DNA of 64,000 nt, from positions 45,718 through 109,717 of the forward strand of contig JAQWTI010000037.1 in assembly GCA_029242745.1 (NCBI GenBank), read 5' to 3'. A program made the position numbers and the translations under genes. The notes beneath the pieces were generated by a model. It was not told the DNA's origin. It saw only the letters and a program-made list of their open reading frames with translations, and searched no databases. The DNA comes from Acidimicrobiales bacterium. Its GTDB lineage: Bacteria; Actinomycetota; Acidimicrobiia; Acidimicrobiales; MedAcidi-G1. This document shows, piece by piece, positions 3,979 through 15,730 of this stretch (positions are counted from its first letter, which is position 1; the number at the start of each line of letters is the position of its first letter).

Positions 3979-4992
3979 ATGATGGAACGCTTGAACTTGA
4001 CCGGTGATCGGCAGGACTGGTACGCCCTAGTCGACGAGGAAGTCATTGACCCGGATCAAGAAATTATCGACCCCCACCACCACCTATGGCATCTCCCTGG
4101 CGCCAACTACCTCATAGAAGAACTATGGGCAGACACCGAATCAGGCCACCGGGTCACTAAGACCGTCTTCATCGAGTGCCACTCCTCCTATCGGGACAAC
4201 GGACCAAACCACCTTCAACCTGTCGGCGAGACTGAGTTCGTCGCAACATTGGCCAACCAAAGCAGAACCGGTCCGGGGCCATATATCGCAGGCATAGTTG
4301 CCCATGCAGACCTCCGCATGAGCGACCGATTACCCGAAGTATTGGACGCCCACGTTCGAGCCGGTGGCGGCCTGTTCCGGGGCATCCGCCATGCTGGCTC
4401 CCATGCTGAAAATCGCGAGTTTCTCACGATCCCAGGTCGAGCACCAGCCGGGTTGTTCGCTGATGAGAACTTTCGCGAGGGCGTACGTCTCCTGGGTCGG
4501 CGCGGTTATACGTACGAGAGCTGGCACTACCACTACCAATTGCGCGACTTCATTGAGTTGGCTCGATCTGCACCGGAAACCACGATCATTCTCGACCACT
4601 TCGGCACACCTCTGGGTGTCGGGCCATACACCAATTATCGGGATGAAATTTTTAATGCCTGGAAAACAGATATCGCTGAGTTGGCAAGCTGTCCAAACGT
4701 GGTAGCCAAACTTGGAGGCCTCGCTATGCCAGACAACGGCTACGGCTGGCACCTAGGTACACGCCCCCCGACCTCCGACGAGGTCGTAACCGCCCACCGG
4801 GACTACTTCCTCCACACCATCGAACAGTTCGGACCTGATCGGTGCATGTTCGAGAGCAATTTTCCTGTTGACCGGGTGTCGATGTCGTACAGGACCCTGT
4901 ATAACGCATTCAAAAAAATGGTCGCCGATTTTGGCGCAGACGAACGCGCTGCAATGTTTGCTGGTACCGCATCACGCGTTTACTCCATCTGA
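3979..4992 (+). CDS. amidohydrolase family 2 TIM-barrel hydrolase
   Basis: Metal-dependent hydrolase of the amidohydrolase-2 branch, which includes lactonases of the 2-pyrone-4,6-dicarboxylate and fuconolactone type and some decarboxylases. The first metal motif is IIDPHHHLW (HxH) at about residues 29-37. Further family marks are FIECHSSY, FRGIRHAGSH, ILDHFGTP and the terminal CMFESNFPVD, whose Asp closes the active site. At 337 aa it is full length. Two adjacent ATGs (3979, 3982) are possible starts. It opens an operon: the DDAH-like gene starts 16 bases after its stop. A role opening a ring or lactone in the same pathway is inference from context. Confidence 0.85.
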   Translation: MMERLNLTGDRQDWYALVDEEVIDPDQEIIDPHHHLWHLPGANYLIEELWADTESGHRVTKTVFIECHSSYRDNGPNHLQPVGETEFVATLANQSRTGPGPYIAGIVAHADLRMSDRLPEVLDAHVRAGGGLFRGIRHAGSHAENREFLTIPGRAPAGLFADENFREGVRLLGRRGYTYESWHYHYQLRDFIELARSAPETTIILDHFGTPLGVGPYTNYRDEIFNAWKTDIAELASCPNVVAKLGGLAMPDNGYGWHLGTRPPTSDEVVTAHRDYFLHTIEQFGPDRCMFESNFPVDRVSMSYRTLYNAFKKMVADFGADERAAMFAGTASRVYSI

Positions 4993-5008: not shown

Positions 5009-5782
5009 ATGCACATCGCCATCACCCGAGAGGTCAGTCAGTCAATCGGGGACTGCGAACTCACCCACCTCGAACGGACTCCAATCAACCACAACACCGC
5101 CCGAGATCAGCACGCTGCTTACGAGGCCGTGCTCACGAGTTTGGGTTATCAGATCGAACGCTTACCCACCGAACCAAATATGCCGGACTCGGTGTTTGTG
5201 GAGGACGTGGCGGTCGTCCTTGACGAGGTGGCCATCATTACACGGCCGGGTGCCCTGTCGCGCAGAGATGAACGCCCCAGCATCGAGAGTGCACTGAGGC
5301 CCTATCGTGAACTGGAACACATAACGTCCACGGGGATTCTCGATGGTGGAGATGTCCTAATAGTCGGACGGGACATTTGGATCGGTGTTTCTAGCCGCAG
5401 CAACGTCGATGCCATCGGCCAGTTCCGCTCCCACGTGGATTACCACGGCTACCAAGTCCACAGTGTGCAGATACGCGACTGCCTGCATTTAAAGTCCGCC
5501 GTAACTGCACTCGACGACACGACCGTGCTGGTGAACCCTGCCAGGGTCAATTTGAGTAACTTCAAAAACCAGCGATGTATTCAGGTTGACCCGTCCGAGC
5601 CGGAGGCTGCCAACGCACTTCGGGCAGGCCGCACCATTGTCGCTGCCTCAGCATTTCCTCGGACCGCTGCGCTTATCGAGGCTGCCGGATTTGCGGTGGT
5701 CACAGTAGATGCATCAGAGTTAGCCAAGGCTGAAGGCGCACTGACATGCTGCAGCCTGCTATTTGACGTATCTGTTGCATGA
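5009..5782 (+). CDS. dimethylarginine dimethylaminohydrolase-like (DDAH) guanidino-hydrolase
   Basis: Pentein-fold enzyme of the DDAH family (257 aa). The family releases an amine from methylated arginines or related guanidines to give citrulline-type products. Visible are MPDSVFVEDVAVV with the substrate-binding Glu-Asp, GILDGGDVL, the catalytic His in CLHLKSAVTAL, and the nucleophilic Cys near the C-terminus in GALTCCSLLF. The ATG at 5009 is chosen because the reading frame further upstream runs inside the amidohydrolase gene and has no family similarity. The stop overlaps the next gene's start by four bases (ATGA), implying translational coupling with the LDI-like gene. Confidence 0.88.
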   Translation: MHIAITREVSQSIGDCELTHLERTPINHNTARDQHAAYEAVLTSLGYQIERLPTEPNMPDSVFVEDVAVVLDEVAIITRPGALSRRDERPSIESALRPYRELEHITSTGILDGGDVLIVGRDIWIGVSSRSNVDAIGQFRSHVDYHGYQVHSVQIRDCLHLKSAVTALDDTTVLVNPARVNLSNFKNQRCIQVDPSEPEAANALRAGRTIVAASAFPRTAALIEAAGFAVVTVDASELAKAEGALTCCSLLFDVSVA

Positions 5783-7272
5783 GCCTCACCAACTCCCCTC
5801 TCCCGCTGGATAAACGGTCACTCGGCTGGCTGCGTTATCTCCACCGTAAGGCCACTACACCAGACAACTGGAACCGTGACGGCCAGCCTCACCCCCACTG
5901 GGATGACCGCACCGGGGAACCGATGCTTTCCTGGCACCGATTTGACCTCGTGGACTCGAGCTACGCGTTAGCTCTTATGGCAGATCGCACCCCTGCCTGG
6001 AGAGAGGTGTATGCCGAGATCCTCGACCAACTCATTACTAGACATACCTCGTGGTGGGCGGCATCTGACTGGCTAACCCAATTCGGCCCCGATCCCGATC
6101 GTTCCCACTATCCACAAGAGTGGAGACCCCTTGTTCCTGCCGAACGGTGGGGCGACTACGACGTGCCCGGCTGGACCGCTAACGGCATCGAGCCGTACGG
6201 CACTCAAATGGATCCCATCGCCGCCGATGGAATGCTCTTCTTTAAAGGATTCTTCGGACTGCTTTTAGGCCTTCACCGTCGCGTTACCGGCGATGGTCGT
6301 TGGAATCAGCCCTTCGAAATGATCCAGGACGGTGAGCACACCTTTACCTGGTCACATTCGGCTATCGCATCCCACTTGACCGACCAGTGGCGCAAACGAC
6401 CAATTGGGGTGCACTGCGAAAATACAAAGATCTGGCCCTACTGACTGAGCGGCGCCGGCCTCGGTCTGAGGCTGCACGACTCTCTTCTTGGCACCAACTA
6501 CCACCAAGTCTTTGACCGCTGGTGGGACCACGCTGAGGCCAACTACATCACTTGGCAGGACGGACGACCCGTCGCCATGGACCTCTACTACGACCCAGTG
6601 ATCGACGAGCACGTGGCCAATCCACTGGGCCTGATGGCGCCCGTTTGGTATCTAGCCCCCCAGAGGCCGAAAGTCGCCCGTTCTGCTTGGGAGTTGGCAG
6701 TCATGTTGACTGGTCTGGACGGCGAAGGTGACCCTGCCGGGCTCAATGATCCAGCATTCATTTCGCTTCTGGCTATGCAAACCGGTGAGTTCGACAATGG
6801 ACGAGTGCAGGATCGCCTCTGGGAGGTCCTCGACGACATCCACGAGCCCAACTGGGACCCCAACACCGGCGAATTCACCTTCGGGTTCGGACTTGGTGAG
6901 CCATATCCACGGGGTCAATTGAACGCACGCGCTATGGCCGGCTGGGTTTGCACGCCCGGTGCCTGGAGCAAACTTTTTGATGCCTGCAGCAATGACCGGT
7001 TTACCGAGCCGACGGTCTCCGGTGTCGACTTCCCAAATACCGCTTTGAGCGAAGCCCAGTGGGATGGTGACGCATTGCATGTAGCGGCACAGGCTCGGAA
7101 CGAGTCGCTCGTCGACTCTCCAACCTCAGTCCGAATCACTGCACTCCCAGCAGATGGGCCATGGATCCTTGTACAACCTGACGACTCCAAAGTGCCGATT
7201 GAAATTGTTTCCGGCGAAACCACCGTGGAACTCAGAGCCGATGGTCGTCGGCGTACTCTGAGGCAATCTTGA
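5779..7272 (+). CDS. selenocysteine-containing linalool dehydratase/isomerase-like protein
   Basis: A 497-residue frame interrupted only by UGA at 6442-6444 (residue 222). The fold is the (alpha/alpha)6 barrel of linalool dehydratase/isomerase (LDI). LDI of Castellaniella has a pair of active-site cysteines nine residues apart (Cys171/Cys180, from memory) in a CEPDNYFVQC context. Here Cys213 is followed nine residues later by the UGA, then LSGAGLGLRLHDSLLGT, which matches the LDI helix after Cys180. The UGA therefore replaces the second catalytic cysteine. A SECIS hairpin follows at the proper distance. The frame stays open for 275 further codons of family-like sequence, and no Shine-Dalgarno precedes the next ATG (6577). 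The KGH segment holding LDI His129 reads KGF here (Phe158), so the chemistry probably differs from LDI. The gene is coupled to DDAH by ATGA. The alternative is a nonsense-mutated pseudogene or sequencing error. Confidence 0.85.
6442..6474 (+). promoter_or_regulatory. UGA selenocysteine codon with bacterial SECIS hairpin
   Basis: UGA at 6442-6444 is followed by C (a UGAC context) and, after 11 bases, by a hairpin. Bases 6456-6462 (CGGCCUC) pair with 6468-6474 (GAGGCUG), giving seven pairs including one G-U, and enclose the five-base loop GGUCU. The loop sequence and the spacing (18 bases from UGA to loop) match the known bacterial SECIS rules and closely resemble the Escherichia coli fdhF element, whose loop also contains GGUCU. 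The hairpin lies inside coding sequence, as bacterial SECIS elements do. Folding was done by eye. Confidence 0.85.
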
Positions 7273-7329: not shown

Positions 7330-8700
7330 ATGCATGAGTACGACACTGAAAATCAGGCCCTCGTCCGATCAGTAGTTGATTACGCCTTGGCACGCTTGGT
7401 CGAAGAACCGCCTCTCCGACCCGTTAAAACCGCCCATGAGTTGCAAGCACTAGTCGGCAAAACCATTACGGCCGAGGGACTGGGTGGCAACGAGGCGTTA
7501 TCCCGCTATGCCGAACATCTCGCTCCTAGCACCATCGCTGCCGACAACCCTCGCTACCTGGCCTTTGTTGCCGGTGCACCGACCCCTGCCGCAACCGCCT
7601 TCGACTTCGCTGTGACCTCATCGGCGGTCGCTGGATCAAGTTGGCTAGACGGTGCTGGTCTGGTCCACGCCGAGAACGAGGCGCTCCGGTGGATTGCCGA
7701 CCTGGCAGGACTTCCCAAAGCCGCTGGCGGTTGTTTCGTCACTGGTGGAACTATGGGGAATCTGTCTGCACTCGTCACAGCCCGTGATGCAGCGAACCGA
7801 GGCCGCGTCAGCGCTGGAACCACCCGTCCGGAACGGTGGGCGGTAGTCGCGTCAGCCAGTTCACATGCGTCAATCGGCTCTGCTGCCCGTGTTATGGATA
7901 TAGATGTCATTGTCGCCGACCTAGACGAGGAACTACGCCTGACCGGAGATTCAGTGGCCGCAGCGATAAGAAATCGGCCTGATCACACTGAGATCTTCGC
8001 CGTGGTAGCTACCGCCGGCACCACAAACGTGGGTGTAGTTGATGCGCTCGATTCGATAGCTCAAGTGTGTGATATTCATGGAATCTGGTTTCACGTTGAC
8101 GGCGCTTACGGTGGCGCAGCACTGGCCGCTCCATCAGTCAAACACCGCTTTAAGGGAATTTCACGCTGTGACTCGCTGATTGTTGACCCCCACAAGTGGT
8201 TGTTTTCACCGTTCGACTGCGCTGCGCTTATCTATCGTGACCCAACGCCAGCCCGCCTTGCGCATACACAGCATGCTGGCTACCTCGATCCACTAATCGA
8301 TGAGACCGTGTTCAACCCCAGCGACCATGCTCACGTACTAACCCGCCGGGCCCGCGGCTTGCCCTTCTGGTTTTCGCTAGCCGTCTACGGCACCAATGCC
8401 TACCGGGATGCCATCGAACAGACCCTTACCGTGGCTCGGGCCACTCGAGATCTAGTCCTACGCTCCGCTCATCTCGAGCTAGTAATCGAGCCAGAACTAT
8501 CAGTCGTAGCGTTCCGTCGCCAAGGCTGGGACGCTCAGGACTATCAGGCGTGGTGTGACCAGTTGCTTACCGCAGGGATGGCGCTGCTCACCCCCACCAC
8601 GTTTGACGGTCAGCCAGCCATGCGGGTATGCATCATCAACCCGAGAACAACAGTGGATGACCTTGCTGAGATCCTCGCAACTCTCAACCCTGTTGCCTAG
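7330..8700 (+). CDS. PLP-dependent group II amino acid decarboxylase
   Basis: 456-aa pyridoxal-phosphate enzyme of the aromatic-L-amino-acid/glutamate/tyrosine decarboxylase family. Motifs in order are an N-terminal helix-turn segment; GGCFVTGGTMGNLSAL (PLP phosphate contact); SASSHASIGSAARV with the His that stacks on PLP; FHVDGAYGG with the Asp that binds the pyridine nitrogen; and DPHKWLFSPFDC with the Schiff-base Lys. Fourth gene of the operon, starting 57 bases after the LDI-like stop. An upstream ATG at 7302 is closed by TAA within six codons. The substrate is unknown. Context suggests an amino acid or aminated intermediate made or consumed by the DDAH and LDI-like steps. Confidence 0.9.
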   Translation: MHEYDTENQALVRSVVDYALARLVEEPPLRPVKTAHELQALVGKTITAEGLGGNEALSRYAEHLAPSTIAADNPRYLAFVAGAPTPAATAFDFAVTSSAVAGSSWLDGAGLVHAENEALRWIADLAGLPKAAGGCFVTGGTMGNLSALVTARDAANRGRVSAGTTRPERWAVVASASSHASIGSAARVMDIDVIVADLDEELRLTGDSVAAAIRNRPDHTEIFAVVATAGTTNVGVVDALDSIAQVCDIHGIWFHVDGAYGGAALAAPSVKHRFKGISRCDSLIVDPHKWLFSPFDCAALIYRDPTPARLAHTQHAGYLDPLIDETVFNPSDHAHVLTRRARGLPFWFSLAVYGTNAYRDAIEQTLTVARATRDLVLRSAHLELVIEPELSVVAFRRQGWDAQDYQAWCDQLLTAGMALLTPTTFDGQPAMRVCIINPRTTVDDLAEILATLNPVA

Positions 8701-15190: not shown

Positions 15191-15730
15191 GTGCATCTGG
15201 CCCTCAACCTTTGCTTAGTCGGATTGATCGCCGGAGCCTGTGGGTCTTTGGATGTCCACCCTGAGACCTCTAAGGAGAAGATTCCTCTTGCTGAGGTGGA
15301 GCCAGATCGCCGTGAAGCGATGCAATCATCTCAGGAACGCTTCAATGCCTGCATAGATCGGGCTGGCTATGAGTTTCGTGGCTTTGCCGGAGGCGAAGGC
15401 GATGCAATCGTCATTGAGGACTCTCGGTACCAAGCCGCTCTGCAGCGTTGCGCCAATGAGTCGGGGGTTGCTTTGCTCCGCGCAGGGTTCGCCGAGTCTC
15501 GTTCCAGTCGAACGACTGATCAGATCCTCGCTGAGAACAACGCAATCTTGAAAGTAGTTGAGTGTTTGCGGGCCAAAGGAAAGGACCTCATCGATCCTGT
15601 TCAGGACGAGGTCGGTGGCCTTAATCTTCGATCTGCTCTCCAGTCTGCTGCGGTCGATCCGCGCGACAGCCAAGAAGCCCGGGAGTGTCTTAGTGAAGTG
15701 GGTCTACGTCGCCCACCGATAGGCAACTGA
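15191..15730 (+). CDS. predicted lipoprotein, unknown function
   Basis: 179 aa. The N-terminus has a hydrophobic signal ending in the lipobox LIAGAC, so it should be a membrane-anchored secreted protein. The mature part is charged and has four further Cys (in FNACIDRAG, LQRCANESG, VECLRAKG, ARECLSEVG) at regular spacing, suggesting two disulfides. GTG start at 15191; the frame upstream lies inside the helicase gene and is not conserved-looking. No known domain recognised. Confidence 0.65.
   Translation: MHLALNLCLVGLIAGACGSLDVHPETSKEKIPLAEVEPDRREAMQSSQERFNACIDRAGYEFRGFAGGEGDAIVIEDSRYQAALQRCANESGVALLRAGFAESRSSRTTDQILAENNAILKVVECLRAKGKDLIDPVQDEVGGLNLRSALQSAAVDPRDSQEARECLSEVGLRRPPIGN

Follow-up and report, generated by a model that had tools for sequence, protein, structure and literature searches.

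A linalool dehydratase/isomerase-like gene of an Acidimicrobiales bacterium with UGA at a catalytic cysteine position: a predicted new family of selenoproteins, with UGA at both catalytic positions in one clade

We analysed a 64,000-nucleotide stretch of DNA (the window) from an Acidimicrobiales bacterium (GenBank assembly GCA_029242745.1, contig JAQWTI010000037.1, positions 45,718 to 109,717 of the forward strand). It contains a gene resembling linalool dehydratase/isomerase (LDI) that is interrupted by an in-frame UGA codon. A first-pass annotation of the window had proposed that this gene encodes a new selenoprotein, with selenocysteine (Sec) in the column of a catalytic cysteine. The relevant features, in window coordinates, are as follows.

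5779..7272, forward strand: UGA-containing LDI-like gene, 497 codons plus a terminal TGA, the frame being read with TGA as a residue
6415..6417, forward strand: Cys213 codon, in the column of LDI Cys171; TGA in the double-UGA clade described below
6442..6444, forward strand: in-frame UGA at residue 222, predicted Sec, in the column of LDI Cys180
6456..6474, forward strand: predicted bacterial selenocysteine insertion sequence (SECIS) hairpin; seven pairs between 6456-6462 and 6468-6474, loop GGUCU at 6463-6467
6460..6468, forward strand: frozen codons CTC-GGT-CTG of residues 228-230, present in 37/37 and 46/46 distinct UGA genes in two sets

Translation with TGA read as a residue confirmed that a single internal TGA (6442-6444) interrupts an otherwise intact 497-residue frame; the gene's own terminator is also TGA (7270-7272). 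The UGA lies nine residues after Cys213, and LDI residues can be aligned on either side of it, in both respects as the first-pass annotation had described. The Cys171/Cys180 pair that it had named proved right when counted in the LDI chain of the Protein Data Bank (PDB). The first open reading frame listed downstream of UGA222 starts at 6577. In a comparison of the window gene with its relative L042, the ratio of non-synonymous to synonymous substitutions (dN/dS) was about 0.14 downstream of the UGA versus 0.05 upstream, with dN of 0.231 and 0.077, respectively, and dS near 1.7 on both sides.

The gene product scores 61.4 bits against the Pfam Ldi profile (PF18566; curated cut-off 26.1), and the gene is the sole Ldi match in its own genome. 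The product is also predicted to adopt the LDI barrel fold, with 18% identity to the Castellaniella defragrans enzyme (PDB 5hlr, 5g1u, 6tft and 6tfr; PF18566) over the aligned fold. The two proteins share the fold family and the positions of the catalytic pair, Cys213 and UGA222 aligning with Cys171 and Cys180, although recoding of the UGA is required for the second residue to be Sec. The full protein very probably forms an LDI-type (alpha/alpha)6 barrel with a C-terminal beta domain, placing Cys213 and Sec222 at the Cys171 and Cys180 sites. The differences from the Castellaniella enzyme include the predicted Sec itself and a beta-rich C-terminal part from about residue 412. Two further differences count against a closer equation with LDI. 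In the pairwise alignment, Phe158 occupies the position of LDI His129, which we take to be an active-site residue, and no cysteine precedes residue 213. LDI, according to PMC6600392, has a capping disulfide, Cys48-Cys101, for which the window protein consequently lacks the cysteines. The first-pass description of an LDI-like enzyme with Sec at a catalytic cysteine thus holds for the predicted Sec position; the name LDI itself would overstate the relationship, and because the capping disulfide and His129 are absent we regard the product as LDI-like rather than as LDI.

The residue found at column 222 in other genes is informative. All 120 uninterrupted homologues examined, the best 120 of 1052 found, carry Cys at both 213 and 222; the length limits of that search nearly barred UGA-cut forms, so all that this count reveals is which residue stands in for UGA. 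Among loci L020-L080, 58 of 61 cover column 222, with TGA in 53 and TGT in 5. Many of these represent one genome reached twice, and after collapsing to 41 distinct sequences TGA is found in 37. Across 61 genomes comprising the window's own and its relatives, 21 have matches, 20 of which cover the column, and every one of the 20 has TGA. A set of 395 genomes of the class, some shared with the 61, yielded 11 with a match: six with in-frame TGA and five without a stop, namely L091 (Cys/Cys), L093 (Ser213/His222) and three weak partial matches. The column is therefore Cys in all listed homologues and TGA in many relatives, as the first-pass annotation had anticipated. Another listing added 119 N-terminal proteins, among them the window's own: 106 stop at residue 221, six stop at 212, six read on through Cys and one ends elsewhere, as judged from the protein sequences, in which the stop codons themselves are not in view. 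Uncharacterised Cys-containing LDI-like proteins, such as P0002, P0066 and L091, are 44-59% identical to the window protein and share its HCENTKxWP motif, differing in having Cys at 222; this range excludes P0114, which reaches 69% over half its length.

Two observations on individual loci may be added. L093, with Ser213 and His222, has lost both catalytic positions and perhaps has a different function. L070 and L061 show a bin named Microthrix (UBA2110) in which a UGA form occurs together with a gammaproteobacterial-type Cys form, probably through mixed binning.

The seven-pair hairpin with loop GGUCU reported in the first-pass annotation was found at 6456-6474, its stem beginning eleven bases and its loop 18 bases past UGA222. 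We compared this region in 46 distinct UGA genes (50 before collapsing), including the fragment L104 and L099, a gene that carries a TAG as well. The GGTCT loop and six stem pairs are kept in all 46, and the outermost seventh pair in 26. Stem pair 4 varies in kind: C-G in 26 genes, U-A in 12, G-C in 5 and U-G in 3. Sliding the stem partner abolishes pairing. Covariation was tested with 23 distinct rows: the score itself, the proportion of cells that pair and the number of both-side-changed cells each exceeded 500/500 shuffles, which ignore kinship among the rows. The codons CTC-GGT-CTG at residues 228-230 are invariant in 37/37 UGA genes, versus gene-wide shares of 0.37, 0.21 and 0.32 for these codons, and residue 231 is encoded by AGG or AGA in 36 of 37. 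In the alphaproteobacterial copies residue 231 changes to Gly or Ser and pairing is still kept. In six DNA rows without UGA that were compared, the GGTCT loop is absent and only 3-4 of the 7 pairs form. This pattern of conservation indicates that the hairpin is under selection.

The window hairpin resembles that of E. coli fdhF, where GGTCT presumably forms the SECIS loop. GGTCT stands at the same distance there, 18 bases past the TGA, in a 43-base sequence matched in E. coli fdhF; the stem sequence and the protein family are different. The published bSECIS limits, as given in PMC13188914, are a loop of 3-9 nucleotides with G in its first two positions, a stem of 4-16 base pairs, a distance of 16-37 nucleotides from the UGA and a minimum free energy of at most -7.5 kcal/mol. 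The window hairpin falls within them (GGUCU, 7 base pairs, 18 nucleotides, -11.2 kcal/mol for 25 nucleotides). The energy limit is reached by the 25-base piece in 35 of 46 genes and by the 51-base piece in all 46. The core stem appears in the minimum-energy structure of the 25-base piece in 45/46 genes.

Several results weigh against the SECIS assignment. The fold energy of 6442-6490 is unremarkable (z -0.57, with 56/200 shuffles folding equally well). When 51 bases from the UGA are folded, the core stem is part of the minimum-energy structure in only 29/46 genes. In the covariation test, both-side-changed pairs were matched by 457/500 shuffles and further pair types by 115/500. An Rfam search of the hairpin region gave no match. 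Since the fold energy does not stand out from shuffles, the argument for a SECIS rests on conservation.

The machinery for Sec insertion, which the first-pass annotation had named as a check, is present in full in the same genome (2.44 Mb, 94.7% complete). Contig C46 carries a tRNA-Sec gene (67.5 bits, also detected by ARAGORN), selB (265 bits) and selA (401 bits). The selD gene (344 bits; L018, C11:14443-15387) itself contains a UGA, the TGA lying in HGAG-U-GCK. In the wider sample, selA exceeds the cut-off in every tested genome with a UGA form (20, with more in later sets), in 48 of 61 relatives and in 18/18 and 7/7 genomes of further sets. It is also found in genomes for which only a Cys or other form is known (G213, G290 and gammaproteobacterial genomes), a point that tells against reading its presence as support. 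As a means of telling Sec from Cys forms in this sample, selA is uninformative and was rejected, since tested genomes with only non-UGA forms known carry it too.

Together, the Cys/UGA column, the hairpin and the Sec machinery support the first-pass proposal, and 5779-7272 almost certainly encodes a selenoprotein with Sec at residue 222. The GGUCU hairpin at 6456-6474 would be the binding site of SelB with Sec-tRNA(Sec), and Sec would be inserted where translation would otherwise end. Public protein sets do terminate the window product at residue 221, as expected if the TGA were a true stop in a pseudogene, a gene for a 221-residue truncated protein or a sequencing error. We nevertheless give this next to no credence and set it aside, as 37 distinct loci share a TGA at this codon, purifying selection continues after the UGA and the hairpin codons are frozen family-wide. 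Readthrough by a near-cognate tRNA, or an altered code, would instead yield Cys, Trp or another residue at 222. Conservation of the SECIS-like hairpin and the frozen codons, in a genome with complete Sec machinery, makes readthrough without Sec highly improbable, and a changed code is rejected because the gene itself terminates in TGA. As a whole, the data are very likely best explained by an LDI-family selenoenzyme in which UGA has replaced the codon of a catalytic cysteine.

What such an enzyme would catalyse is considered here by analogy. Selenols have a lower pKa than thiols. Because of this, repeated replacement by Sec would favour a role as nucleophile or base, or resistance to oxidation, over proton donation. 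The enzyme may be a lyase, an isomerase or a hydratase whose substrate is a small unsaturated alcohol or a related metabolite, with a selenolate, ionised at neutral pH, as nucleophile or base and not as proton donor; we propose this chemistry tentatively. The selenolate might also withstand oxidation better than the thiols of LDI, an oxygen-sensitive enzyme in which, according to PMC6600392, both cysteines are essential and must stay reduced. The first-pass suggestion that a selenol would alter the dehydration/hydration chemistry is one that we infer rather than observe.

The LDI mechanism itself is disputed between acid/base catalysis and a covalent thioterpene (PMC6600392). It is conceivable, though somewhat doubtful, that the genes described here form a widespread class of redox-neutral lyases or isomerases in an LDI-type barrel, in which Sec replaced one or both cysteines on separate occasions and forms a covalent Se-C intermediate with an unsaturated substrate. 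Calculations that found covalent LDI pathways unfavourable (same source) speak against the covalent form; were it true, nature would have performed an experiment on the disputed thioterpene. The LDI fold may instead have been reused for thiol/disulfide or peroxide chemistry through a Cys213-Sec222 selenenyl-sulfide. Redox proteins make up the majority of the prokaryotic selenoproteins known so far (PMC13188914), and a redox role would suit a Cys and a Sec nine residues apart in an active site, a clade with UGA at both positions and the loss of LDI His129. However, by fold and family the protein belongs with a (de)hydratase/isomerase whose two cysteines must stay reduced, there is no CxxU-type redox motif, and among the 13 neighbour proteins used as queries no conserved redox partner gene was found near the locus. 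We consider a redox selenoprotein unlikely, and regard the lyase, isomerase or hydratase chemistry above as the working proposal.

In a subset of genes the first catalytic position is affected as well. TGA occurs at 213 in addition to 222, within GCHxENTKxWPFx, in 8 of 37 distinct TGA genes and in L090; the members of this double-UGA clade are L037/L064, L038, L065, L066, L068, L071, L075, L079 and L090. L039 and L092 lie in the clade and retain Cys213. In a third search, 20 of 62 newly listed N-terminal proteins (e.g. P0277, P0282 and P0289) end at residue 212, making 26 with the six mentioned earlier, which suggests that more genes have UGA at the first catalytic position. UGA213 is likely also read as Sec, with less certainty than UGA222. 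The hairpin behind UGA213 overlaps UGA222, is weak (z -1.93 to +0.94 in six sequences) and varies in its loop between genes, and the GGUCU loop is 45 bases away, beyond the 16-37 range. This lack of a clear second SECIS would fit a clade in which only UGA222 encodes Sec and the genes are otherwise decaying. Such decay is improbable given that codon 213 is Cys in every one of the best 120 homologues and that UGA213 recurs across distinct loci and, apparently, the proteins ending at 212. Known prokaryotic proteins with several Sec residues (for example Prx-like UxxU and TsoB UxxxxU; PMC13188914) likewise have two Sec per motif. They belong to other families, whereas the LDI-like UGA pair is nine residues apart and coincides with both catalytic cysteines.

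In a quick maximum-likelihood tree of 76 thinned rows (without near copies and without P0114 and P0118, which are long; an earlier tree had 101), UGA forms fall in three separate parts: in the window's own clade, in the double-UGA clade and among alphaproteobacterial copies that surround the Cys form P0116. The tree requires three Cys/UGA changes, among which gains and losses are indistinguishable. A single grouping of all 42 UGA rows was rejected by the approximately unbiased test (p-AU 1.5e-57), a value obtained on a quick tree for a group defined after the first tree had been seen. On this quick tree, the switch between Cys and UGA appears to have happened several times, with no one common Sec clade. 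Some genomes hold several copies. In the order of the genome of L072, recorded as Alphaproteobacteria, 3 of 15 genomes have matches; G061 has four UGA copies, G464 three, and G463 copies and fragments. The GGTCT hairpin is present in all 11 loci examined in these three genomes (L097-L107).

We conclude that these genes represent a new family of selenoproteins, one variant of which has UGA at both catalytic positions. Table 1 of PMC13188914, with 119 prokaryotic selenoprotein families by its own count, has no LDI entry in its accessible part; an NCBIfam search of the gene product gave no match; and a term search for "linalool" in PMC12013277, PMC9312934, PMC2398784 and PMC1088965 found none. 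A search of literature listings returned no paper joining selenoproteins with linalool dehydratase and no selenium LDI, although an earlier mention is possible in supplements or in the groundwater study, with new candidates, that PMC13188914 cites as reference 66. The recurrent UGA switch, in some genes at both catalytic positions, is likely the sign of a family of selenium enzymes that has been overlooked; the cutting of genes at UGA in public protein sets would explain the oversight. The family would add a fold and an enzyme class not found in that 119-family list, as far as its accessible part goes. Moreover, a Cys-to-Sec swap at a disputed LDI residue, found in separate lineages and, in one clade, affecting both residues, would make the mechanism directly testable, because selenium should aid a nucleophile and harm a proton donor.

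The genes flanking the UGA gene, surveyed in 36 loci with 13 neighbour proteins as queries, include the following.

3979..4992, forward strand: Amidohydrolase_2 gene, a neighbour in 6/36 loci
5009..5782, forward strand: dimethylargininase-like gene, its stop overlapping the UGA gene's start in ATGA, a neighbour in 12/36 loci
7330..8700, forward strand: pyridoxal phosphate-dependent decarboxylase gene, a neighbour in 7/36 loci

A set of 3-hydroxyisobutyrate-dehydrogenase-like, acyl-CoA-dehydrogenase-like and phosphotriesterase-like genes accompanies the UGA gene in 9/36 loci, and a CoA-transferase with an acyl-CoA synthetase in 3/36. Neighbours vary by clade and point to no single substrate, which does not favour the proposed chemistry, and we abandoned deduction of the substrate from them. 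The overlapping arrangement hints that the dimethylargininase-like gene and the UGA gene share a pathway. Elsewhere in the window, a second long frame split by TGA, at 15728, resembles an ordinary gene end.
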